In this document: in pieces, positions 4,092 to 35,638 of the stretch | Position numbering within the stretch: position 1 is the stretch's first letter | How the letters are laid out: each line of letters opens with the position of its first letter | IMG/VR virus record: IMGVR_UViG_3300048029_000435 | Span: 1 to 35,638 of that record | DNA: 35,638 bases | From: a virus | Direction: 5' to 3' (one strand) | Made by a program: the position numbers and the translations under genes | Notes under the pieces: generated by a model | What the model saw: the letters and a program-made list of their open reading frames with translations, nothing else | The model's database searches: none | Told to the model about the DNA's origin: nothing

Positions 4092-4113
4092 AATGTTAAA
4101 ATTTTCACCTTTT

Positions 4114-4162
4114 CGACGAATAGCCGAAAAACATCGACGGATCCCGTAAAAACATCGACGAA
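4114..4162 (+). repeat. Iterons, block 1: three CGACGRA units at 21-bp spacing
   Basis: CGACGAA (4114), CGACGGA (4135) and CGACGAA (4156) start exactly 21 bases apart, two helical turns. The spacers share an A-rich end (AAAAACAT precedes the second and third). Such phased repeats are typical binding sites for replication initiators. Confidence 0.6.
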
Positions 4163-4180
4163 TTCGAGCAAAAATTAAGG

Positions 4181-4197
4181 TGTGTCAAATGGACACA
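4181..4197. repeat. Palindrome 1, operator-like
   Basis: TGTGTC (4181-4186) and GACACA (4192-4197) are perfect complements around AAATG. The GTGTC/GTGTA core recurs in the palindromes at 4225-4245 and 4661-4681. Confidence 0.45.
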
Positions 4198-4224
4198 ATT
4201 TATAGCCCAATTTACCCGGTGGGG

Positions 4225-4245
4225 TTAGTGTCAAGTACACACTAA
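4225..4245. repeat. Palindrome 2, operator-like
   Basis: TTAGTGT (4225-4231) and ACACTAA (4239-4245) are perfect 7-bp complements around a 7-base spacer. The right side continues as GGGGG, as it nearly does in palindrome 3. Confidence 0.5.
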
Positions 4246-4300
4246 GGGGGTTCGCGTCTAATGCACGCGCAGCACAAAACCAAATTATTATACAAATATT

Positions 4301-4328
4301 CGACGAATAGTAAAAAATCGTCGACGAA
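4301..4328 (+). repeat. Iterons, block 2: two CGACGAA units at 21-bp spacing
   Basis: CGACGAA at 4301 and 4322 are again 21 bases apart, with an A-rich spacer (TAGTAAAAAATCGT). CGACGAATAG at 4301 repeats the first unit of block 1. An inverted copy, TTCGTCG, lies at 4398-4404. Confidence 0.55.
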
Positions 4329-4527: not shown

Positions 4528-4658
4528 ATCAAAAAAGCAAGAAAAAAAGCAAAAAGTTTTTAACACGTTATCAACGATCCGTGCCCGTGTCCGCGTCTAC
4601 GATATTAGAAGCACAATTCCAAATATTTCGAACGAAAGTTATCAACACGTTATCAACA
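4528..4658. other. DnaA-box-like cluster beside an A-rich block (candidate replication origin)
   Basis: TTATCAACG (4568-4576), TTATCAACA (4639-4647) and TTATCAACA (4650-4658) lie in one orientation; the last two are 11 bases apart, one helical turn. Each TTATCAACA differs from the classical TTATCCACA box at one position. An A-rich block with three runs of five to seven A (4528-4560) adjoins them and could be the unwinding site. The phage lacks a polymerase, so host DnaA-based loading is a reasonable inference. Confidence 0.5.
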
Positions 4659-4660
4659 GC

Positions 4661-4681
4661 TAAGTGTATAACGTACACTAA
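4661..4681. repeat. Palindrome 3, operator-like
   Basis: TAAGTGTA (4661-4668) and TACACTAA (4674-4681) are complementary in 7 of 8 positions around TAACG. It abuts the last DnaA-like box, so occupancy could affect origin use as well as transcription. Confidence 0.45.
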
Positions 4682-4688
4682 GGGTAGG

Positions 4689-5024
4689 GGGTGACCACCC
4701 ACCCACCCCGTGTTCGTGGGACCGTCGGCGGGCGGGTCTTTTCTTTGTGCGCCTGACAACGGGGCAGGGGGAGTCAAAACTCACCCTAATGTCACCTTCG
4801 GGGGTTTTTTCGTCACCCAGATCAAGGGGGAGGGGGGTGACATAGCGTCAAATGGGTGACATACAAGAGGCTACATCACCCAAATACTCACCCAGGAGGA
4901 ATCCAACAGGGCCAAGGGATGTAGGGCGTTTGGGTGAGAAGGTGAGATAATTTTATTAAAAAGATATCTGAGTGCTTTTTGCACTTAGGAAAAACTTTCG
5001 AAAAAAAAGTCACCCTCGTCACCC
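4689..5024. repeat. Array of about twelve TCACCC / GGGTGA motifs
   Basis: GTCACCC or close variants occur at 4780, 4791 (GTCACCT), 4812, 4875, 4887, 5009 and 5018, and the reverse complement at 4689, 4835, 4854, 4932 and 4941 (GGTGAGA). The last two copies are 9 bases apart and end next to the late -7 box. Spacing and orientation vary, unlike the iterons. Possible roles are operator sites for late control or a terminase recognition (cos or pac) region, since packaging genes follow immediately. Confidence 0.6.
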
Positions 5025-5032
5025 TACATTTG
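5025..5032 (+). promoter_or_regulatory. Late promoter -7 box, TACATTTG
   Basis: TACATTTG fits TAnnTTTG at every fixed position. A good -33 TTTG is not visible; TTTCG at 4996-5000 is 24 bases away. The first late ATG is at 5037, so a start about 6 bases after the box would give a leaderless or nearly leaderless message. Two TCACCC motifs directly abut the box, which suggests that a bound protein controls it. Confidence 0.5.
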
Positions 5033-5036
5033 TTTT

Positions 5037-5471
5037 ATGAACTTAAGACGCACATCCAGGAAGAAACCTTGGATAGCAAAAAAGCAAGGGAGGAACCGTA
5101 GGGACCTGGACTCTGGCAGGCTGGTGAGGCCGTTCGAGGGGGTAGCCAGCAACGGTTTCTACAAAACGCCGCAGTGGAGAGCCACCAGGGAGGCCGTGCT
5201 GCACCGTGATGCCATTTGCCAATGGTGCCTGCACTTGGGGCACGTCACTCCAGCCACGGAAGCGGACCACGTAATCCCACTCAACAGGTGCGACAACGGG
5301 TACGATCAGACCAACATAGTGGGCAGCTGTAGAAGTTGTAACGCGAGAAGGGCCTCATATGAGGCCAACGGTGTTAGGTTTGAGTCGTTCGAACATTGTG
5401 TCAAGTACATGCGAAAGAAACTTTACGGAAATGAGGATTCAGGTAAACAGTCTGGGTTGGACCAGGTCTGA
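5037..5471 (+). CDS. HNH endonuclease, 144 aa
   Basis: A small HNH nuclease. Two zinc-knuckle pairs, C61-x2-C64 and C98-x2-C101, frame the catalytic ADHVIPL (D77-H78) and Asn93 (QTNIV). The N terminus is very basic (RRTSRKKPW, KKQGRNRR). HNH proteins beside terminase genes assist cos cleavage in HK97-like phages, which fits its place at the head of the packaging module and next to the TCACCC array. It could instead be a free-standing homing nuclease, but the conserved position makes that less likely. The start is the only ATG near the late promoter. Confidence 0.85.
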   Translation: MNLRRTSRKKPWIAKKQGRNRRDLDSGRLVRPFEGVASNGFYKTPQWRATREAVLHRDAICQWCLHLGHVTPATEADHVIPLNRCDNGYDQTNIVGSCRSCNARRASYEANGVRFESFEHCVKYMRKKLYGNEDSGKQSGLDQV

Positions 5472-6676: not shown

Positions 6677-7159
6677 ATGGCAAATAAAAATACGTTACTA
6701 CAAAAAATGAGAGAGGCAACCTCGCCTGCGAAGGATGAGGTGGCTAAGGTTTTGCGATCTGACGCTAAAAAAACGTCAGAACTCAAGCCAATCGTTAGTT
6801 TGGACCACGAGGGTGAGCGAATGTTCACCATGGTGTTAGACTACCTTGACGAGACCGGGCTGCTCGAAAGTGTGGACGTGGTGACGATTACGATGCTCGC
6901 TAAGAACCTGTCTATGTTCGTTATGCTGTCACGGGAAATCCAGACGATTGACGACATAGTGCAGGTATATGAGAACGGATCGTCCAATGTTAGTGGTAAA
7001 ATGACCGCATTATCAAAGGTTCAGGGCGAAGTGAGCAAACTTTCTGCCAAGCTAGGTCTTTCGCCTATGGACCGCGCCCGCATGATGGGCGCCGCAGTAA
7101 ACGCCGCCGCTGCCAACAGCAAGCGTGCTGAGGGGGACGAAATCGACGACCTTGTCTAA
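6677..7159 (+). CDS. terS: Terminase small subunit, P27 family-like, 160 aa
   Basis: DNA-recognition subunit of the packaging motor. The middle is helical (ERMFTMVLDYLDETGLLESV, TITMLAKNLSMFVMLSREIQ), and the C-terminal part has the family's LGLSPMDRARMMG signature (residues about 131-143). The C terminus is acidic (EGDEIDDLV). It lies directly before the large subunit and overlaps it. P27-type small subunits accompany HNH nucleases and HK97-type large subunits, as here. It is the first candidate for binding the motif array at 4689-5024. Confidence 0.8.
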   Translation: MANKNTLLQKMREATSPAKDEVAKVLRSDAKKTSELKPIVSLDHEGERMFTMVLDYLDETGLLESVDVVTITMLAKNLSMFVMLSREIQTIDDIVQVYENGSSNVSGKMTALSKVQGEVSKLSAKLGLSPMDRARMMGAAVNAAAANSKRAEGDEIDDLV

Positions 7160-8906
7160 AAACACAAAACGACTCAACAGGATGTGGGACTACGTCGAGG
7201 GAGTGCTCGATGGGTCTGTTGTGGCCGGAAAGTACGTAATTAAAGCGTATGAGCGGTTCACCCGTGACCTGGAGCGCCAAGGCGACGAGGATTTCCCTTG
7301 GGTGTTCGACTTGGAGGTTGCGGCCAAGTATGTGGCGTTCATAGAGACGGTTTGCGTCCACACGCGTGGCGAATGGGCAGGTAAGCCGTTAATCCTTTCC
7401 CCGTGGCAGGTCGCGTTCATAGGGCAGATTTTCGGCTGGGTACACAAGGATGACGTGAAAAAGCGTCGTTTTACCACCGCACACTTCTTTGTTGCGCGTA
7501 AATCTGGTAAATCTCAACTCGCGGCGGCCATCATACTTGCGATGGCTGTCCTGGACGATGACGGTGCCGGTCAGTTTGTTACTGCGGCCACGAAGCGCGA
7601 TCAGGCGAAGGAAGTGTTCGATGAGATACGCCGATGCGTCAAGCGCTCGCCTCCCCTCACGAAGCGGTTCACAGCCAACAGACAGGAGATTCACGGTCCA
7701 AAAGACTGTATAATTAAGCCATTGTCGTCCGATGCCAACACTTTGGACGGTCTGAGTTTGAACATAGGCTGTGTCGATGAGATGCACGCGATGAAGGACG
7801 GTGAGCTGTACAGGGTACTCGCGTCATCGATGGGTTCGCGTAAGTCACCGCTCATGCTCGCCATTTCCACCGCTGGCTTCGTGCTGGACGGCGTGGCTAC
7901 CGAGTTTGTAAACGGTGGTAAAAAGGTGCTGGACGGTACCGTGAGCAACGAAAACCTGCTGTTTCTGTGCTACGAGATAGACAAAGAGGAGGGTGACGAG
8001 TGGGATGACCCCGAAGCTTGGAAGAAAGCAAACCCTGGATTGGACGCTTCCATTTCTATGGAGTACCTGCACAAGCAGTGCAACAACGCCAAACTGTACG
8101 GCGGTCGCACGATCACAGAATTTATGGTCAAGCACTGCAACCTTTTCGTCGGAGCGCAAGATATATGGATAGAGGACGACTTGTGGATGGCTGAGGAGAA
8201 CATCAAGCAGCCGTTTAACGCGGACGAGGAAAAACTGGATGCGTATATCGGGCTGGACCTCGCGGCCACGGATGACATGACTGCGTTTAGCGTGGCTGTT
8301 GGCGACCCCGACCAGGGAGTCCAGATATCCAACTACTACTTCCTTCCAGAACGAGCTGTGCAGCGCCGATTGGAGAAAGACGAGACGCATATCTACGCCC
8401 ACATAGAGGAATATGACAACGTGATTGTGACTCCGGGTAACGTCACTGACTATAACGTGATTAGAAGGATGCTCAGTGGGCACTACGTGATGGACGGCAA
8501 GGTTCAGTACGACCCAGACAACCTTTCGGAGAAGTACAACATCAAGGGCGTGGCGTATGACCGTTGGAACTCGTTAAGTCTAATCCGCGACCTGGACGGT
8601 GACGGCGTCCCGTGCGACCCGTTCGGTCAGGGTTACGCTTCTATGTCGTTCCCATCTAAGTTTTACGAGAAGCTGGCGCTAGAGGGCAAGCTGCACCACG
8701 GCGGCGACGAAGTTCTGCGCTGGATGATGAGCAATGTCCATCTAAAGCTCGACCCCAGCGGCAATATCAAGGTTGATAAATCTAAGTCTGGAGATAAGAT
8801 TGACGGGGTGGTTGCGGCGATCATGGCGATAGGCGAAATGCTCACTTTTGAAGAGGACGAGACGCCACCAGATTTCGAGTTCTTTATGTCTGTCGTAGGA
8901 ACGTAG
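7125..8906 (+). CDS. terL: Terminase large subunit, HK97/Terminase_1 type, 593 aa
   Basis: ATP-driven DNA translocase and nuclease that fills proheads. The ATPase half shows Walker A ARKSGKSQ (residues 124-131) and Walker B NIGCVDEM (213-220). The nuclease half shows an RNase H-like set: GLDLAATDD (376-384), GVAYDRWN and, near the C terminus, KIDGVVAAIMA. The frame opens at a GTG (7125) within the end of terS; an ATG at 7182 (MWDYVEGVLDGS) would give 574 residues and still keep the whole family domain, so the true start is uncertain. HK97-type enzymes usually make cos ends. Confidence 0.93.
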   Translation: MLRGTKSTTLSKNTKRLNRMWDYVEGVLDGSVVAGKYVIKAYERFTRDLERQGDEDFPWVFDLEVAAKYVAFIETVCVHTRGEWAGKPLILSPWQVAFIGQIFGWVHKDDVKKRRFTTAHFFVARKSGKSQLAAAIILAMAVLDDDGAGQFVTAATKRDQAKEVFDEIRRCVKRSPPLTKRFTANRQEIHGPKDCIIKPLSSDANTLDGLSLNIGCVDEMHAMKDGELYRVLASSMGSRKSPLMLAISTAGFVLDGVATEFVNGGKKVLDGTVSNENLLFLCYEIDKEEGDEWDDPEAWKKANPGLDASISMEYLHKQCNNAKLYGGRTITEFMVKHCNLFVGAQDIWIEDDLWMAEENIKQPFNADEEKLDAYIGLDLAATDDMTAFSVAVGDPDQGVQISNYYFLPERAVQRRLEKDETHIYAHIEEYDNVIVTPGNVTDYNVIRRMLSGHYVMDGKVQYDPDNLSEKYNIKGVAYDRWNSLSLIRDLDGDGVPCDPFGQGYASMSFPSKFYEKLALEGKLHHGGDEVLRWMMSNVHLKLDPSGNIKVDKSKSGDKIDGVVAAIMAIGEMLTFEEDETPPDFEFFMSVVGT

Positions 8907-11038: not shown

Positions 11039-12997
11039 ATGGAAAATCTAGAAAAGCGGTCACTTAGCGCCGACTTCGAGGTACGTTCTGAGAAGGACGG
11101 CAACATCGTGGTCGAGGGTTACGCGGCACGTTTCGAGGACGAGACCGTTATTGGCGGAAGGTTTGCCGAGCGTATTGCTCGTGGTGCGTTTGACAAAGCC
11201 GACATGTCTAATACTGTCGCCTTGTTCAACCACGACTGGAATATGCCATTGGCCCGTGTTGGTCGCGGCTTGGAACTGGACGTCGATGACAAAGGTCTCA
11301 AGTACCGATTCGAGCTGGGTAACCAATCCTACGCTAAGGATTTGGCCGAAAACATTCGCATGGGCAATGTGTCCACCTCCAGCTTCGGTTTCACAATCTC
11401 CGACGACTCGTGGGAGCGTCGGGAGGACGGTGTGAACTTGAGAGTTATCAACGAGGTGGAAACCCTGTTCGATGTTTCTCCAACAACGCAGGGCGCTTAC
11501 CCAACAACAGAAGTAGGGCTTCGCTCTATGGAAGCGTTCCTCGATCAGGAGGTAGAAGAAGAGTTGCGTAAGCTCGAAGAAGAGGAGGAAGAGAAGGGCT
11601 ACATGGACGAGGAGGACGAGGAGAAGCCTGAAGAACGACCCGGTCATTACGAAGAAGAGGAGGAAGAGGAAGAGAAAAAGGAGGAAGAGGAAGAGAAGCC
11701 TGAAGAGCGTCCCGGCCACTACGAGGAGGAAGAGGAAGAAGAGGACGAAGATCGTATGGAAGAGGACGAGGACGAAGAAGAAAAAGAAGAAGAGGAGGAA
11801 GAGGAACAAGAAGAGCGGGTAGATCAACTAATTGACCCAGCTATTTTGCCTCACCCTTACTCACAATCATACAATACTGAGCCAACCGAGGCTCGACATA
11901 ATAAATCACAAAACAAAAATTCCACTATGGAAAAGCAAAACAAGAATAGTGCTCCGGCACTCGTTCAGGGCCTCGGCGACACAGAGGCTCGCGCTAGTCA
12001 AAAGTTCAGCTTTGGCAAGCTGGTAAAGGAAGCTGCTCAGGGTCGTTTGACTGGCCTCGAAGCAGAAATGAATCAGGAGGCTCGCAACGAGTTCCAGGAC
12101 GCGAAAGTAAACGTGGCCGGAGGCGTGTGTGTTCCTTCTTTCATCACGTCTCGTGCTGCGTTGGCAGTTGACGGAACTAACGCTAACGCTGCGGCGTTCG
12201 GTGGTTCTATCGGAGAGGTGGACAACGGTGTCGTTGAGGCGTTCAAGCCTACGGACATTGCCGCTCGAATGGGCGTCCGCAACTTGGGCAACTTGACTGG
12301 TGACGTTGTGTTCCAGGTACAGGGCACTCCTGCCGCTGCTGGTAAGCCTCAAGAAGGCGCTGCTCAAGCTGTCAACAACACAGGGTTCACTTCTGTGACT
12401 TTGTCTCCAACTCGTTACGCTGCTCACACGCAGGTGACTGACCAGATGTTGGCACAGTCTGCTGATGACATGGGCGCTTTCCTCGCGAAGGACATCCGTG
12501 ACGCAGTTGCTAAGAAGTTCAACGCTGATATCATCGCTGAGATTTTGGGTGATACTACTAACGGCGTTTTGTTGAACCAGACTTCTGCTGGTACTTTGGA
12601 TGGTTACGACGCTACCACGATGAACCCTCTCGATTTGGAAGCTGCATTGATGGGCCGCGACGTTCCATTGGAGAACGTGGTTGCTTTGTCAGGTGTTAAC
12701 GCTTACCGCATTTTGCGAGCGTTGAGCCAAGACGCTGGTTCTGGTATGTTGTTCGCTGGCCCAGCTCGCGAGCGTCAGAACGTATTGGGATACGAAACAT
12801 ACGTTTCATCTCAGATGGCTGGTGACGATTTCTTCATGTTCGACAAGGAGCAAGTCGTGACTGGAACGTGGGGCGGACTAAACCTCATCGTTGACCCATA
12901 CAGTGATGCGGACCACGGTGTTACGCGAATCATCGCTAACATTTACCGTTCTGTTCAAATCCTGAACAACGGAGGATTCGACGGATTTACTGTATAA
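11039..12997 (+). CDS. Prohead protease fused to major capsid protein, 652 aa
   Basis: One frame encodes three parts. Residues 1-165 are an HK97-type (S78/U35) prohead protease with LFNHDW (His65) and STSSFGF (Ser114/115). Residues 169-260 form an extremely acidic Glu-rich linker containing two copies of EEKPEERPGHY. Residues about 297-652 are an HK97-fold major capsid protein (GGVCVPSFITS, TQVTDQMLAQSADDMGAFLA, YRSVQILNNGGFDGFTV). An in-frame ATG at 11927 (residue 297, MEKQNKNS) follows an A-rich leader and could make capsid protein alone. The linker probably acts as delta/scaffold region and is cut away by the protease. A terminator follows. Confidence 0.9.
   Translation: MENLEKRSLSADFEVRSEKDGNIVVEGYAARFEDETVIGGRFAERIARGAFDKADMSNTVALFNHDWNMPLARVGRGLELDVDDKGLKYRFELGNQSYAKDLAENIRMGNVSTSSFGFTISDDSWERREDGVNLRVINEVETLFDVSPTTQGAYPTTEVGLRSMEAFLDQEVEEELRKLEEEEEEKGYMDEEDEEKPEERPGHYEEEEEEEEKKEEEEEKPEERPGHYEEEEEEEDEDRMEEDEDEEEKEEEEEEEQEERVDQLIDPAILPHPYSQSYNTEPTEARHNKSQNKNSTMEKQNKNSAPALVQGLGDTEARASQKFSFGKLVKEAAQGRLTGLEAEMNQEARNEFQDAKVNVAGGVCVPSFITSRAALAVDGTNANAAAFGGSIGEVDNGVVEAFKPTDIAARMGVRNLGNLTGDVVFQVQGTPAAAGKPQEGAAQAVNNTGFTSVTLSPTRYAAHTQVTDQMLAQSADDMGAFLAKDIRDAVAKKFNADIIAEILGDTTNGVLLNQTSAGTLDGYDATTMNPLDLEAALMGRDVPLENVVALSGVNAYRILRALSQDAGSGMLFAGPARERQNVLGYETYVSSQMAGDDFFMFDKEQVVTGTWGGLNLIVDPYSDADHGVTRIIANIYRSVQILNNGGFDGFTV
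11618..11743 (+). repeat. Coding repeat in the acidic linker, two copies
   Basis: The peptide EEKPEERPGHYEEEEEEE is encoded twice (from 11618 and from 11690), in a tract of almost pure GAA/GAG codons (about 11543-11818). Codon choices differ between copies, so the duplication is not very recent or has been kept at protein level. Confidence 0.75.
11927..11929 (+). promoter_or_regulatory. Candidate internal start of the free major capsid protein
   Basis: The in-frame ATG at codon 297 is preceded by AAATCACAAAACAAAAATTC, as A-rich as other leaders in this genome, and is followed by GAAAAG as in the first start of the same gene (ATGGAAAAT). Initiation here would yield a 356-aa capsid protein in excess over the fusion. 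Confidence 0.5.
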
Positions 12998-13061: not shown

Positions 13062-13700
13062 ATGAAAACGATCGTCACACAGAATTACTACGCAGAAGAC
13101 TTAGTGCCTTTGTCTATTATTCGCGGCCACTTGCGCTATGAGCAGGGGGAAGCTGACGGTCTTATCAACTCCTACCTGGAGGCGGCTATGGACTACATGC
13201 TCACGGTGACGAACCGTGTGTTCTGCTCTAGCGCTCCAGCGTCACACGAGGACTCAAACTACAACTTGGCATCTGTTTCTGCCAAGAACTCAACTGTAGT
13301 GGTTTATCTAGACCGTTTGGAGGTTAAGGAAATCCAGACCCTACGTAACATTACAGGCACATACACCGTAGAAGCCATCGACTACCTTGACACTAGCGGA
13401 GACTATGTCGCTTACGTGGACGATAAGGCACGAGTTAGAAATACAGGCTACCCGATTCAGGTTGACTTCACAGGAACAGAGCCTCCTGTCGACCTTAATG
13501 AAGATCAGGACTACGACCTGTATAAGATTACCCTCTCTGGAGGGGAAAATGTCAAGGACTTGCCTAAGCAATTTACTCAGGCAGCACTTATGTTGATAGG
13601 CCACTACGATTCACACCGTGAGGCAGAATTTTTCGGAGGTATCACCACAGAAGTCAAGGAGGGTGTTCAGCGCTTGCTTGGCTCAGTAAAGCGCTACTAA
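13062..13700 (+). CDS. Head-tail connector (gp6-like adaptor), 212 aa
   Basis: The adaptor ring below the portal. The N terminus (VPLSIIRGHLRYEQGEADGLINSYLEAAMDYM) has the helical pattern of gp6/gp15-type connectors (Phage_connect/gp6-like), and the C terminus has LPKQFTQAALMLIGHYDSHREAEF, also typical. At 212 residues it is about twice the length of the simple family, the excess being a beta-rich insert (about 75-165). Position right after the capsid and before head closure supports the assignment. The stop overlaps the next start as TAATG. Confidence 0.75.
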   Translation: MKTIVTQNYYAEDLVPLSIIRGHLRYEQGEADGLINSYLEAAMDYMLTVTNRVFCSSAPASHEDSNYNLASVSAKNSTVVVYLDRLEVKEIQTLRNITGTYTVEAIDYLDTSGDYVAYVDDKARVRNTGYPIQVDFTGTEPPVDLNEDQDYDLYKITLSGGENVKDLPKQFTQAALMLIGHYDSHREAEFFGGITTEVKEGVQRLLGSVKRY

Positions 13701-26765: not shown

Positions 26766-28655
26766 TCATCGAACTGGGCACGCACCCGTGTCACAGTCCA
26801 TAATCTCAACCTCATCCATTTCGAGATGATGCAGGCTTTGAATCGGATTTACCCGACTCGACATCTCGATGTAGGTTGCCTCGTCAATCTCTTCCATTGG
26901 AGCCTGCTTAAAACCGTGGTCGCTGTGCAGGAGGAAGGAGACCGATTTGACGTTTTTGTAGTTGAGACGAAGCCACTCCTTTATTTCGTCTAGCTCCTCT
27001 AACCTATAGTAAATAGTGACAGAAACCGCATTGTCAGACCATTCTGCCTGAAGGCGCTTAATCACCTCAAGCTGGTCAATAGCAGTCATGTCACCTGCAA
27101 ATGTAGTGTTCGACGGGAACTTGCAAGGGAAGCTAACCACGACAGTTGACTTGTCCTCGCTGCCATCGAAGTTCAGCACGTACTCCACAGGGTACCCGTG
27201 CTTCCTGGCGGTAGATGCCAGATCGCTATCAGCTGCCATTCGGATACGTCGGATGTAGAACTCGCTGTATCCTGGGTGCGCCCCTGGTGTAACGCCAGCA
27301 AGTAGACTAAGCGTTCCAGATGGCTTGACTGTTGTAAGTTTAACGGATGTTGGGTATCCCGCCAATTGAGAGTATTCTTTGTCATAGTTGCGTAGGTATT
27401 CGTAACAACCGTCCAACCAACTGCGCTGCTCGTCGGTGGCCTGCAAGTAGCCAGTCACCCCGATACCCATACGCATGTTTTTGTGAACGATATCTTCTGT
27501 TTCTTTGATGGCGCACTTGATTGCAAGGCTGTGCTTGTTGATTCGGTACAAGAACCGGGCAACCTTCAGCAGCTCGTGGTAGTCCTGAATGTTCGGCAAG
27601 TAGATTTCTGCCAAACAACAGGTTTCAAAGTTGGCAAGCGACTGCTCGGCACAAGGGTTGAATCCCTGCACGTCAGGGTCAGGGTACTCCGTCTCAAACG
27701 TGCGACCCATCTTCCGTGACGCGTCAAGGTTGATGAGACCATACGGTTCGCCATTGCCACGGTAGCCTTCCCAGAATTCGTCAGGCAGCTGCGAGATGTC
27801 TGAGCAGATGACCGAATTGTTCGACATGGCACGCCAGTTTGGTACGCCACCAAGATCCCAACGCTTCGCACGCAGGTACTCGATATCGTCACAATCGCCT
27901 AAGGCAATCTGAGCGCTTCTACGGACGTTTCCTGCCACTACAATCTTCCCGATGATATTCATGATATCGAGGCAGTCTACAGGGCGTAGACGCTTCCCTG
28001 AGCGACTATTGAGGAGGGTGTTAATCTCGCCCATACCCCACACCAGGTCGTCAGGCCCAGAAGCGGTGCCTCCGAAGCCTTTTATTGGAGAGCCTTTGGA
28101 CCGGATGAGGTGAGCAGCATACGTGAAGTCATCTCCGGTCACGAACGAGGCCTCCAACACGCGGCGCAACAATTCTACCCATCCCTCGCGGCTGTCAGGC
28201 ACGATAAAGTCGGCGTCATTGGCGTCGGTACGCTCTACCTTGACACGAGCCTTGACCTTCGGCAGCTGATAGACATTCTCTCGTTGAATGTTGAACCCGA
28301 CTCCAGAGCCGAGCATAAGCATCTCGAATGCCCAAGTGAACGGGCGAATGGGGTCATCGACTACTACGAAGGCGCAGTTCTGAAGTGACGGCAGACCCAA
28401 GCGGTCCACCGTTTCTGTACCGAGCTGCCACAGGAAGCGGCCCGCCACCGTGCCCTTCAGCTCCATCATAATCCGCTTCAGGTCGGCCTCCTCAAACTGA
28501 GTGAAGCCAACGTCAAGCTGATCACGACAAGCGTCAATCACACGATCAACGGTCTGTTCCCACTCCTCTGTCTGGCCTCCTTCTACTGGCCTGGCATAGG
28601 TTCGTTTAAATACGGGGTATCCAACCTCTCCCCAGGGTGTTTCATTTGTTTGCAT
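26766..28655 (-). CDS. nrdJ: Adenosylcobalamin-dependent (class II) ribonucleotide reductase, 629 aa
   Basis: Reduces ribonucleotides to deoxyribonucleotides with a B12-generated radical, independent of oxygen. Residues of the monomeric RTPR type are present: LQNCAF (Cys94), NPCAEQ (Asn333, Cys335, Glu337) and Cys346; the 11-residue step from 335 to 346 equals that in the Lactobacillus enzyme. The C-terminal pair CDTGAC (Cys621, Cys626) can accept electrons. It is shorter than the 739-residue bacterial enzyme. As last gene of the early unit it supplies dNTPs for replication, given cobalamin from the host. It overlaps the preceding gene by 14 bases. Confidence 0.93.
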   Translation of the reverse strand: MQTNETPWGEVGYPVFKRTYARPVEGGQTEEWEQTVDRVIDACRDQLDVGFTQFEEADLKRIMMELKGTVAGRFLWQLGTETVDRLGLPSLQNCAFVVVDDPIRPFTWAFEMLMLGSGVGFNIQRENVYQLPKVKARVKVERTDANDADFIVPDSREGWVELLRRVLEASFVTGDDFTYAAHLIRSKGSPIKGFGGTASGPDDLVWGMGEINTLLNSRSGKRLRPVDCLDIMNIIGKIVVAGNVRRSAQIALGDCDDIEYLRAKRWDLGGVPNWRAMSNNSVICSDISQLPDEFWEGYRGNGEPYGLINLDASRKMGRTFETEYPDPDVQGFNPCAEQSLANFETCCLAEIYLPNIQDYHELLKVARFLYRINKHSLAIKCAIKETEDIVHKNMRMGIGVTGYLQATDEQRSWLDGCYEYLRNYDKEYSQLAGYPTSVKLTTVKPSGTLSLLAGVTPGAHPGYSEFYIRRIRMAADSDLASTARKHGYPVEYVLNFDGSEDKSTVVVSFPCKFPSNTTFAGDMTAIDQLEVIKRLQAEWSDNAVSVTIYYRLEELDEIKEWLRLNYKNVKSVSFLLHSDHGFKQAPMEEIDEATYIEMSSRVNPIQSLHHLEMDEVEIMDCDTGACPVR

Positions 28656-28899: not shown

Positions 28900-30026
28900 C
28901 AGAAAAGATGTGTTATCCTAGCCACTTGACCGTGCTTAGGGTGATGAACGAATCCCTCTACTGCCTTCGGTGCGTGCTGATACCCGTTTCGGTGGTGCCA
29001 GCTGTCCGCTCCCGAAGGAGACCGTAGAGATTCTACTGTAACGCCAGGGAAGTCCTTACTAGTTTTGTGATGTACGTGATGTGTGTATACGTACCTGTGT
29101 TCTGTTTGCGACCAGTATAAGGGTGCCTCTGTAGCCATCAGTATTGGCAAGTCGGCAGTTTTCGCACCGTCACCGTGAGTGGTGCCGATGAGATTGTTGC
29201 CATATTTGTAGTATTTCCTGTGGTGTAGGTTGCTGTCGAACGACATGTTCGGCTCCTCCGAGAACCACGTAGCGATGATATCGCACAGGAAGAACCCGTT
29301 GGTGTAGTCGTGATTCGAAGGGTTGAACATGAAGTGTACAGGCGCCACGCCAAGGAGCGTTTCGATGAGGTCTATATACAACTGCTTTGCGAGCAAAAAG
29401 TTGCTAAACCACATACCATCTGTGTCCTGCGGGGTGCCCGAAGTTGTAGTGCGTCGAGGAGAGTCGATGTGCAGGACGTCGTTGCCAGCCACAAAGACAA
29501 TCTGGTCTATGCCAAACGCCTTGCACTTGCTGAGGATGCCATGCACGCCCTCCTTCACGCGGGCCACCGCCATATTGCTGTCGTAAGACTCCCCCGTTTC
29601 GAATGCCATAGACAGCTTGCCGATGTGAATATCGGCAGGGTCGATGACAAGACAATGGGGATTGCTTATGGACTCGTACTCAACTCCGGGGTACTTTGGA
29701 ACATACTCCTTCATAGAGCCAAGGATGCTCTCTTTGATGTCGCTCCAATCTACCTCGTTCTCGTTCTTTACGTGTAGCGAGAAGTGGTCGCCTTTATACC
29801 AGTACGAACTCACACGATCAGCAGGCACGCCGCTCGCCGAAGCGAAGTCGTACATGCTGCTGTGTGAATCGCGGCTCCTCACCAGGTTCGAGATTGACCG
29901 ACGGACGCTATCCTCGGACACACCGAAGTCGTGGTCCTTCATTAGCTCCCTCGCCACCTCCGCGTTCGTAAGACCCTTGCTTCGCAGCTCCAGAATTTTG
30001 TTTAGATGTTCGGAGTATTTACTCAT
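28899..30026 (-). CDS. HTH-metallophosphoesterase, 375 aa
   Basis: Residues about 1-50 form a helix-turn-helix (LELRSKGLTNAEVARELMKD ... EDSVRRSISNLV). The rest is a calcineurin-type metallophosphoesterase with all main metal motifs: DPADIHIGK (Asp132, His134), AGNDVLHID (Asn182, Asp183), NPSNHD (Asn238, His239), THGDG (His284) and HHVHH (His317, His319). DNA-directed nuclease or repair activity is likely because of the HTH, in the manner of SbcD/Mre11-like enzymes, but the substrate is unknown. It is flanked by replication genes and overlaps the next start as TGATG. Confidence 0.85.
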   Translation of the reverse strand: MSKYSEHLNKILELRSKGLTNAEVARELMKDHDFGVSEDSVRRSISNLVRSRDSHSSMYDFASASGVPADRVSSYWYKGDHFSLHVKNENEVDWSDIKESILGSMKEYVPKYPGVEYESISNPHCLVIDPADIHIGKLSMAFETGESYDSNMAVARVKEGVHGILSKCKAFGIDQIVFVAGNDVLHIDSPRRTTTSGTPQDTDGMWFSNFLLAKQLYIDLIETLLGVAPVHFMFNPSNHDYTNGFFLCDIIATWFSEEPNMSFDSNLHHRKYYKYGNNLIGTTHGDGAKTADLPILMATEAPLYWSQTEHRYVYTHHVHHKTSKDFPGVTVESLRSPSGADSWHHRNGYQHAPKAVEGFVHHPKHGQVARITHLF

Positions 30027-30588
30027 TTTTAATTATTTCATAGTTGTCAAGTATCTCCTCCGGACTGTAGCCCATATCTTTCAACCGCAGCATCTTCGAA
30101 AGGTTGACCAGTTGAGACTCCGAGGGGGTCTTTTCCAGCTTAAAATCTATGTCCGAGTTGTAGTTGGATTGCTTGTCCCGCATCCCGCAGATGTCTGCTG
30201 CGGTCATTAGTAAAGCCTCCTCCAAGTACGTATCGTAAACCCTGTCCAAATACACGTTGTGTTCGCATTCGTAGTGTTCGTCTGCGACAGCACTCATGAT
30301 GTCGAGTTTGTCCTTCTCGTAACCGGACATAGAAAAAATCATGTCCGTAGAGGTGGCGTAACTCATGTCCGCGTGATAGGAAACGGGAGCGCGATAATAG
30401 TTCAGAGCATGCGATATCTTCTTATATGGAAGATACAGTTTGTTGCGTAAGAACCACGCTATCAATCGTCGATCAGGACACTTTTTTGGGTCGTCGAATC
30501 CGAACTCACCGAGGATGTCGTTGGTGAGCCAATTTATCTCTTTACTTGTGAGGAACTTGGTTTTATTGAATCGTTCTAAGATGTTCAT
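30019..30588 (-). CDS. Putative DnaA domain IV-like DNA-binding protein, 189 aa
   Basis: Residues about 40-76 (DRRLIAWFLRNKLYLPYKKI then SHALNYYRAPVSYHADM) follow the spacing of the DnaA C-terminal DNA-binding domain, where R...A..L.R.......I...F..RDHTTV.HA is expected; the acidic DHT part is replaced. A C-terminal segment (VNLSKMLRLKDMGYSPEEIL) looks like a second small helical motif. No ATPase domain is present. It directly follows the helicase gene (ATGA overlap), so origin recognition or helicase loading is an attractive but unproven role, supported by DnaA-box-like sites near 4.6 kb. Confidence 0.55.
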   Translation of the reverse strand: MNILERFNKTKFLTSKEINWLTNDILGEFGFDDPKKCPDRRLIAWFLRNKLYLPYKKISHALNYYRAPVSYHADMSYATSTDMIFSMSGYEKDKLDIMSAVADEHYECEHNVYLDRVYDTYLEEALLMTAADICGMRDKQSNYNSDIDFKLEKTPSESQLVNLSKMLRLKDMGYSPEEILDNYEIIKNE

Positions 30589-32006
30589 ATTACATTCACA
30601 AAGGTTGATTTGTAATACTTCTCGTTGACAAGTTTGAACAGGAACTTGTGCTGCCGCTTCCCTGCTGACTCCTGAACGACGCCGTGCGATTTACACTTGC
30701 CTTTCAGGGTACGCATGGTGCCCAGCTTATTCCCGTTCATGCCACAGAAGTAGTTAAACGCTGAAAACAAATCCGATTGATGAATCCACAGGGAGTCCGG
30801 GCCTTCTTCCTTCGCCTTGATAATCTCCAAGCCGCTCGCACCCAGGAACGACAGGAACGTGTCACCGTCATACCGAAGGTCGTCGAGCGCCTGAGCCAAG
30901 GAGTCGGGACGCACCATCCGTCCGAAGTTGTTCTGCATCTCAAGCAAGCAGTCAATCATGTCCATGACCATCTCGCGTTGCTCTTTGGGGGCAGCTAGCT
31001 TCTTTCCGATGAAGGGGTCTCTGTTCTTCTCATCAACAGGATTATTGAATTGGACAATGTCGATACGTCGACTTATCCCGGAGTCACCCAAGGCGTGTGT
31101 AAAGCCAATCTCGTTGGAGGCCACTATGAGCGAGGCACGAGGGACGAAATACTCGACCTCTCGATAGAGTCTACGCCCACTAATCTCTTCCTTCGAAACT
31201 ATTTGCTTTAGTACGTCCTTGTTGCCTAGGTTGCCTGATGCGTCACCGCAGATGCAGAGTATGTGATTGGCTAAGTCGATCCTGTAACGACTCTCGTCTT
31301 TGGTTAGATTCCTCAAATCATCTACTCGGCACGCATTCTGCTTACCTATGGTCGCTACTACTGCGTCAATTAATGTGGACTTTCCGCTCGCACCTACGCC
31401 CATCAGCAACAGCATTCGTTGCGCGTGCATAGGGTCGCCCGCAATCGCATTGATGAACGAAGCCAATACATATCGCCTCATCTCTTCATTAGGGATGATT
31501 TGATTGATGAACTTCGCCCAAATAGCCGATTGCTCTCGGTCGCCACAGTAATTAAACGGTAAGCAGTAGGTAAATACACATCGGTGGTCGTGGCCCTCTA
31601 TGAACTCCAGTTGTGACTGCGATATCATTAATCGCCCGTCCATAAAGTTCAAACCCTTCGGGTTCATGTCGAGGTCGGACCCATACCTGTCCAGGCAGAC
31701 GCCGAGAGACTTCTCGGTTGCCCGCAGGACGTCAGGGTCGTTCGCAAAGGAGATAGGCAGCGAGAGGCGCCGTAAAGCGGCCTCCATTATCTCATACATC
31801 TTTCCTGCCTCGTAATATCTCCCATTGAACAAATGGACCACCTGTCCAAGCATCAAAACAGGGGTGCTCGCCTCGTTCGCCGCCCAATTAATAACGGCGG
31901 CCAACGAAGAAGGCATCGCCTTCTGGGGAATCTTCTTATCCTCCCCAACGAGATCTACCCTTGCTTTGTCTGACATGGATGTAATTTTCTCAATTACCTT
32001 CTCCAT
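30585..32006 (-). CDS. SF3 (D5-like) replicative helicase, 473 aa
   Basis: Superfamily 3 helicase of the D5/phage-plasmid primase type, central to replication in phages lacking DnaB homologues. An N-terminal D5_N-like region (about 60-190) leads to Walker A GVGASGKST (203-211), Walker B LCICGDAS (250-257), sensor Asn298 in VASNEI and arginine fingers in SRRIDI (312-317). The C-terminal 100 residues form a winged-helix-like end (SDLFSAFNYFCGMNGNKLGT). No primase motifs are visible, so priming must come from elsewhere. It overlaps both neighbours (17 bases upstream, ATGA downstream). Confidence 0.88.
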   Translation of the reverse strand: MEKVIEKITSMSDKARVDLVGEDKKIPQKAMPSSLAAVINWAANEASTPVLMLGQVVHLFNGRYYEAGKMYEIMEAALRRLSLPISFANDPDVLRATEKSLGVCLDRYGSDLDMNPKGLNFMDGRLMISQSQLEFIEGHDHRCVFTYCLPFNYCGDREQSAIWAKFINQIIPNEEMRRYVLASFINAIAGDPMHAQRMLLLMGVGASGKSTLIDAVVATIGKQNACRVDDLRNLTKDESRYRIDLANHILCICGDASGNLGNKDVLKQIVSKEEISGRRLYREVEYFVPRASLIVASNEIGFTHALGDSGISRRIDIVQFNNPVDEKNRDPFIGKKLAAPKEQREMVMDMIDCLLEMQNNFGRMVRPDSLAQALDDLRYDGDTFLSFLGASGLEIIKAKEEGPDSLWIHQSDLFSAFNYFCGMNGNKLGTMRTLKGKCKSHGVVQESAGKRQHKFLFKLVNEKYYKSTFVNVI

Positions 32007-35348: not shown

Positions 35349-35581
35349 TTTACTGGTTCTATGATTTTTTCTTCTAATAAGTAGTCGAGGCTGTCGCAAA
35401 TAACCTCTGCGATATACGTCATCAATAGATCGTTGTCACAAAGAGCGTTTGTCAGCACCTTCTTAAGGTCTTGCTCGCTCAGGGTTACGCCTCGTGACTC
35501 AGCGTACATTTCAACGTCTTCCACGCCCCACATCATAGAGGGACCGATGTAGAAGCCTTCTTTGCTAATTACTGTGTTCAT
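35345..35581 (-). CDS. Hypothetical acidic early protein, 78 aa
   Basis: Starts MNTVISKEGFYIGPSMMWGV. The rest is helical and acidic (EDVEMYAESRGVTLSEQDLK, NALCDNDLLMTYIAEVICDS, LDYLLEEKIIEPVK). The start follows CCCAAGAACAATG and overlaps the upstream 37-aa gene as ATGA; the end couples to the 23-aa gene. The first 29 codons recur at 1-89 because of the contig overlap. No family recognised. Confidence 0.8.
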   Translation of the reverse strand: MNTVISKEGFYIGPSMMWGVEDVEMYAESRGVTLSEQDLKKVLTNALCDNDLLMTYIAEVICDSLDYLLEEKIIEPVK

Positions 35582-35638
35582 TGTTCTTGGGTATTAATTT
35601 CTACTTCTTGGATTGGGAGTACAGGCAGGTTGAGTACC
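35493..35638. repeat. Terminal overlap of a circular contig, right copy
   Basis: Repeats 1-146 with G at 35619 in place of T at 127. Genes cross the joint in frame, which supports circularity. Confidence 0.93.
35578..35638 (-). CDS. C-terminal part of the 37-aa early protein, cut by the contig end
   Basis: Duplicate of 86-146, the last part of the 37-codon gene that is complete at 86-199. This copy encodes Leu (CTC) where the left copy has Ile (ATC). Confidence 0.6.
   Translation of the reverse strand, partial: VLNLPVLPIQEVEINTQEQ

Follow-up and report, generated by a model that had tools for sequence, protein, structure and literature searches.

A dense array of short repeats at positions 4781-5024 of IMG/VR record IMGVR_UViG_3300048029_000435, the 35,638-nucleotide (nt) sequence of an uncultured virus of bacteria (analysed whole and hereafter called the window), is probably a replication origin built of iterons and situated beside a separate packaging end (cos). 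A D5/SF3-type helicase encoded in the same genome would read it through a predicted winged helix at its C-terminus. We favor this assignment because the layout of the array recurs beside homologous helicases in cultured phages, where in one case, phiadh, the region is annotated as an origin.

Organization of the motif array

An earlier, sequence-only reading of the region between 4689 and 5024 had described about twelve copies of one motif in 336 bases (b), on both strands and with no fixed spacing, the final pair touching a late -7 box. We counted ten exact copies of TCACCC/GGGTGA and two with one mismatch (TCACCT at 4792-4797 and AGGTGA at 4940-4945); both strands carry them and the last copy does abut the putative box TACATTTG. 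The comparison with expectation proposed in that reading also set the array apart, as the whole window holds 28 exact copies against 14.8 expected from shuffles. The densest 336-b stretch has ten of them, but at most three were reached when the whole window was dinucleotide-shuffled 200 times, and outside the array the count is no more than one per 336 b. When any hexamer was allowed, the densest 336-b count in 40 shuffles was six. The copy at 4689 overlaps a constant element left of the packaging cut and is probably not a member of the array.

The spacing, contrary to the initial description, is ordered. A leftward tandem pair (4932/4940) and a rightward one (5010/5019), with periods of 8 to 9 b, face each other over a 63-b A+T-rich spacer, and this tandem-plus-inverted pentamer layout occurs a single time in the window, at the array (Table 1). 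The number of distal iterons, located to the left of these pairs, is conserved among relatives of the same motif class.

Relatives were collected through the large terminase (TerL), which yielded 73, while alignment of TerLs matched 466 in IMG/VR; no cultured phage exceeded about 34% TerL identity, leaving the family without a close cultured member, and a search of bacterial genomes for a host with TerL gave a sole, distant match (29%) in Pseudoalteromonas. The layout was tested in the leaders of 50 relatives and pentamers were counted in those of 51. A tandem pair, a spacer and an inverted tandem pair were found in 46 of the 50 leaders and in none of 5000 shuffled leaders; the exact pattern did not capture the other four, some of which, at least, have a degenerate or wider-spaced pair. 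The pentamer counts distinguished the motif classes GGTGA (that of the window), RATGA, AGTGA, TGTGA, GGAGA and GGAAA, with several to 14 copies of the class pentamer per leader.

Table 1 Features of the window considered in this work.
Feature	Position	Strand	Remarks
AAGGGTAGGG, constant element, putatively cosQ-like	4680..4689	+	About 33-42 b left of cosN
cosN: GGGAC, CGTCGGCGGGCGG, GTC	4718..4738	+	Putative ends 4722 and 4736; 13-b core 4723-4735
AGGGGGAGTCAAAA, constant G-run element	4766..4779	+	Some 30 b to the right of the cut; common to every motif class
Distal iterons	4781..4893	both	TCACCC at 4781, 4813, 4876, 4888 (+); TCACCT at 4792 (+); GGGTGA at 4835, 4854 (-)
Left iteron pair, GGGTGAGA/AGGTGA	4932..4945	-	8-b period
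Spacer, candidate unwinding element	4946..5008		63 b, 76% A+T
GGAAAAACTTTCG, GAAASTTT-type element in spacer	4988-5000		Type found in many leaders, before the right pair
Right iteron pair, TCACCCTCG/TCACCC	5010..5024	+	9-b period; orientation opposite to that of the left pair
TACATTTG, TAnnTTTG-type -7 box, putative late promoter	5025..5032	+	Directly after the last motif copy
HNH endonuclease gene	5037..5471	+	First of packaging operon; PF01844, E 4e-7; phrog_144
Small terminase gene	6677..7159	+	PF05119, E 3e-9
Large terminase gene	7125..8906	+	TerL_ATPase and TerL_nuclease; phrog_9
D5/SF3-type helicase gene, proposed iteron reader	30585..32006	-	DUF5906, E 2e-11; phrog_1156; African swine fever virus (ASFV) C962R primase-helicase profile, E 1e-7
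Helicase C-terminal winged-helix domain (predicted)	30588..30875	-	Last 96 residues; AlphaFold2 predicted local distance difference test (pLDDT) score 90.6
Recognition helix MRTLKGKCKSHG (predicted)	~30681-30716	-	Within the winged helix

Recurrence of the layout in other phages and islands

Helicases homologous to that of the window, at about 22-27% identity, are encoded by cultured phages, and the same layout, in letters of its own in each case, was found directly 3' of the helicase gene in phiadh, phi105, PSA, JNU_P5, SpsX-DS11, Sc-Yong805-1 (as GGGAGGATAGGGAGGATA facing TATCCTCCCTATCCTCCC) and Nsp-JY21. The phiadh region is marked rep_origin in its GenBank record (13084-13469, NC_000896.1). 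The window thus resembles phiadh (of Lactobacillus), phi105 and the Listeria phage PSA in its tandem iterons, A+T-rich stretch, inverted tandem iterons and homologous D5-type primase/helicase. It differs from them in the position of the array, which occupies the cos/late-operon leader, and in the size of the helicase, with 473 amino acids (aa) against 771 aa in the phiadh-type system.

The layout has also been described for the origins of phage-inducible chromosomal islands (PICIs; PMC6092414), and the window shares with these, including the Staphylococcus aureus pathogenicity islands (SaPIs), a Rep/primase-helicase initiator and iteron letters that vary between elements, although it is no satellite island and its array is not beside rep. 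Two features of the phiadh and PICI arrangement are present, namely opposed tandem iterons flanking an A+T-rich stretch and an SF3/D5 helicase with a predicted DNA-binding-type C-terminus.

A further parallel is offered by phage P4, in which the iteron is GGTGAACAG. Its origin and gp-alpha resemble the present system in combining a helicase that has a C-terminal winged helix (predicted here) with repeated sites on both strands, but P4 alpha also has a primase domain, and its origin-binding domain did not appear among the structural matches of the window's helicase.

In the window itself, genes point away from the intergenic region of the array on both sides and converge near 26.7 kilobases (kb), a gene order compatible with an origin at the array; the GC skew cannot be separated from the effect of gene orientation.

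A packaging end adjoins the array

The sequence-only reading had proposed a terminase-binding (cos/pac) region as one function of the array and had named HNH, small terminase (TerS) and TerL genes as following it. Profile matches found these genes in that order, and packaging ends do border the array on its left, although the array itself, as described below, is not the element that terminase binds. A cos site was located there because contigs of independent relatives repeatedly start or end at one point. Contigs L013, L020, L028, L033, L035, L053 and L275 have GTCTTTC as their first letters (window position 4736), L156 and L158 have GGGAC as their last (4722), and of 46 contigs from relatives, about 19 have their first base 29-32 b ahead of the constant G-run element. 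The 13-b core is absent from both kinds of contig end, which, judging from contig edges, would fit 3' overhangs trimmed during library making. The full-length contig G001 starts at GTCTTTC and stops at the core end; at this right end (L145) the contig's cos region recurs as a short chimeric repeat, which the assembly introduced at the junction. The cos site placed by these ends borders the array on its left, and the HNH, TerS and TerL genes to its right fit this assignment. An exact search of IMG/VR with the cos core returned matches outside the family of the window that were without the array.

The constant element left of cosN is conserved in place in G018, G028, G008, G001 and L032, which are of different motif classes. 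In HK97, TerS binds +15 to +29 b from the cut (PMC11331095), and by analogy the G-run element is a candidate TerS site. The region resembles the HK97-type cos in its fixed genome ends, nearby HNH and terminase genes and constant element near the cut, whereas the HK97 cos has a 10-nt 3' overhang (PMC11331095) in place of the putative 13-b core of the window, to which a candidate origin is appended.

Exchange of the array independently of cos and terminase

The separation of the array from packaging was most evident in two contigs, L031 (GGAAA) and L032 (GGTGA), which have identical HNH proteins (100%), 98% identical TerS proteins and different motifs. Identity is 96% in the cos part and 92% over the 4.3 kb that begin shortly ahead of HNH, while the ~300-b array lying between these two parts is unalignable. 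In L025 (RATGA), the corresponding values are 94% for HNH and 98-99% for TerS. Because near-identical proteins accompany different motifs, HNH and TerS cannot be the readers of the array and were ruled out; and because the array is replaced while cos and the downstream genes are conserved, it moves as a cassette of its own. On the TerL tree of 50 phages, at least eight changes of motif class are needed, and one clade of 11 phages contains five classes. ORF88, NinG and a 133-aa open reading frame (ORF) beside HNH were also rejected as readers, having no match in L042, which carries the motif of the window.

These observations bear directly on a cosB-like function, in which TerS or HNH would bind the repeats to begin packaging. 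Such a function would suit a cosN that borders the array on its left, with HNH, TerS and TerL genes coming next, as in HK97 and lambda, but is contradicted by L031 and L032, by the swapping of the array independently of cos and by the frequent class changes along the TerL tree. The repeats were not found to be read by the small terminase, as those of a lambda-type cosB are, and we regard this explanation as barely credible.

Control of late transcription, the other function suggested in the sequence-only reading, fared somewhat better. An operator, at which a phage activator or repressor would bind the motifs cooperatively and govern the HNH-terminase operon with the -7 box as target, is in line with the location of the array at the start of the late operon, where its last pair abuts a box 4 b upstream of the HNH ATG, and our comparison could have overlooked a regulator whose gene lies in the left arm, which is poorly conserved. 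However, the TAnnTTTG box is confined to the window's own clade and missing from the other leaders that keep the array, so that the array is not tied to the box; in L013, L020 and L034 tens of bases separate the box from the pair upstream, and the paired and inverted layout with its A+T-rich spacer matches regions beside homologous helicases, one of them an annotated origin. An operator is thus unlikely to account for the array.

The helicase as candidate reader

The AlphaFold model of the whole helicase was poor (pLDDT 58.6) and, for this reason, only the C-terminal domain was used. The best structural matches of the predicted winged helix were the ASFV C962R tail (Z 7.0) and the DNA-binding domain of RFX1 (Z 6.8), followed by Orc1/Cdc6-type initiator domains, the Z values being middling. 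The origin-binding domain of P4 was not in this match list; the C962R tail has been likened to the P4 gp-alpha origin-binding domain and to RFX1 (PMC10516667).

The predicted recognition helix reads MRT[LF]KGKC in GGTGA genomes (n = 6), MKGLKGKC in RATGA genomes (n = 2) and [MI]R[RK][LF]K in GGAGA genomes (n = 8). The helicases of G024 (GGTGA) and G001 (RATGA) share similar overall identity with that of the window (62% and 63%, respectively), yet their helices differ as the motifs do. This covariation is suggestive of the helicase as reader of the iterons.

A host protein, whose recognition of the motifs would make motif class mirror the host and not any phage protein, could likewise be considered, given the near-identical phages with different motifs and the DnaA-box-like sequences TTATCAACA/TTATCCACA left of cos in some relatives. 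The variation of the phage helicase recognition helix with class argues against it, and the DnaA-like boxes are neither universal nor inside the array, making a host reader very unlikely. Either box was seen just left of cos in the window (4639-4658, two copies 11 b apart), at the left end of L158 and in L032; with this distribution among only some relatives, the boxes were discarded as a general mark of the origin.

A 189-aa protein encoded beside the helicase (30019-30588, - strand) is conserved in place, fast-evolving and without a Pfam match. It was rejected as reader since G022 and G024 share the motif of the window with only 27-39% identity in this protein. By eye it seems to resemble DnaA domain IV (RRLIAWFLRNKLYLPYKKISHAL).

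Several observations weigh against an origin read by the helicase. Among 16 genomes for which the two trees were compared, the helicase and TerL trees both explain the classes with just two changes, and the covariation of helix and motif is therefore partly confounded by ancestry; the contigs in which the swaps are clearest (L031, L032 and L025) are too short to include the helicase. Unlike in PICIs and phiadh, the array is not immediately 3' of the helicase (rep) gene but about 8.5 kb off on the circle, on its other side; in favor of the origin, however, the helicase gene of the window runs into the next gene, which leaves no space for an origin at the usual 3' position. Spacers of the GGAGA clade are longer and frequently reach only 50-60% A+T. 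Lastly, phiC31, TG1 and phiSASD1, which have a homologous helicase, were without a clear array 3' of its gene, the gene neighbouring the helicase in these phages being DNA polymerase.

Other features of the genome

The record start recurs at its end (1-146 versus 35493-35638, an imperfect overlap of up to about 146 b), and the record represents an assembly of circular type, about 35.5 kb long, rather than a linear virion map. A second repeat, TCGACGAA, clusters in the approximately 1.2 kb left of cos in the window (4112-4326) and in G008, G009, G020, G024, G026 and G028, with eight copies left of cos in G008 versus one in 25 kb elsewhere, and perhaps serves early-promoter control or partition. 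In L005, L013, L020, L034, L042, L055, L056 and L066, an insertion of about 3-4 kb upstream of TerS sets this gene apart from those on the HNH side; the window lacks it. From reading of the translations, we take 11039-12997 (+) to be one 652-aa ORF with a protease-like N-terminus, a long acidic low-complexity linker and a major-capsid-like C-terminus, and the 629-aa protein of 26766-28655 (-) presumably resembles a vitamin-B12-dependent ribonucleotide reductase.

Proposed mechanism and implications

In the mechanism that we propose for the origin, copies of the helicase would bind GGGTGA-type iterons through the C-terminal winged helix. The opposed tandem pairs would thereby position helicase at either flank of the A+T-rich spacer, and melting of the spacer would start replication. 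HNH, TerS and TerL would cut concatemers at about 4722/4736, left of the array, using constant elements (AAGGGTAGGG and AGGGGGAGTCAAA, whose roles are putative) and not the iterons. In the family of the window, the origin would be placed in the late leader, by cos.

The array departs from known origins in its place, in its exchange as a cassette and in the variety of its iteron spellings. Origins of replication are seldom located from sequence in uncultured phages, and here a large family, with 466 TerL relatives, would have origin and cos adjacent. Its arrays keep one layout in at least six spellings, and the candidate reader is a helicase whose predicted recognition helix varies with them. 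The arrangement of paired iterons, reported as unique to PICIs, is more widespread, extending to phages with D5-type helicases. The specificity of helicase for origin and the speed of its turnover lend themselves to direct tests on short DNAs with small domains. More tentatively, and with considerable doubt on our part, phages of a family that carries its origin in the packaging leader, next to cos, may exchange this origin between near-identical genomes as a cassette of ~300 b. Replication specificity, the matching of helicases to the origins that they can fire, would then change quickly and separately from the specificity of packaging. If so, the exchange may perhaps provide escape from competing phages or satellites, and origin firing may perhaps be coupled to packaging or late transcription.
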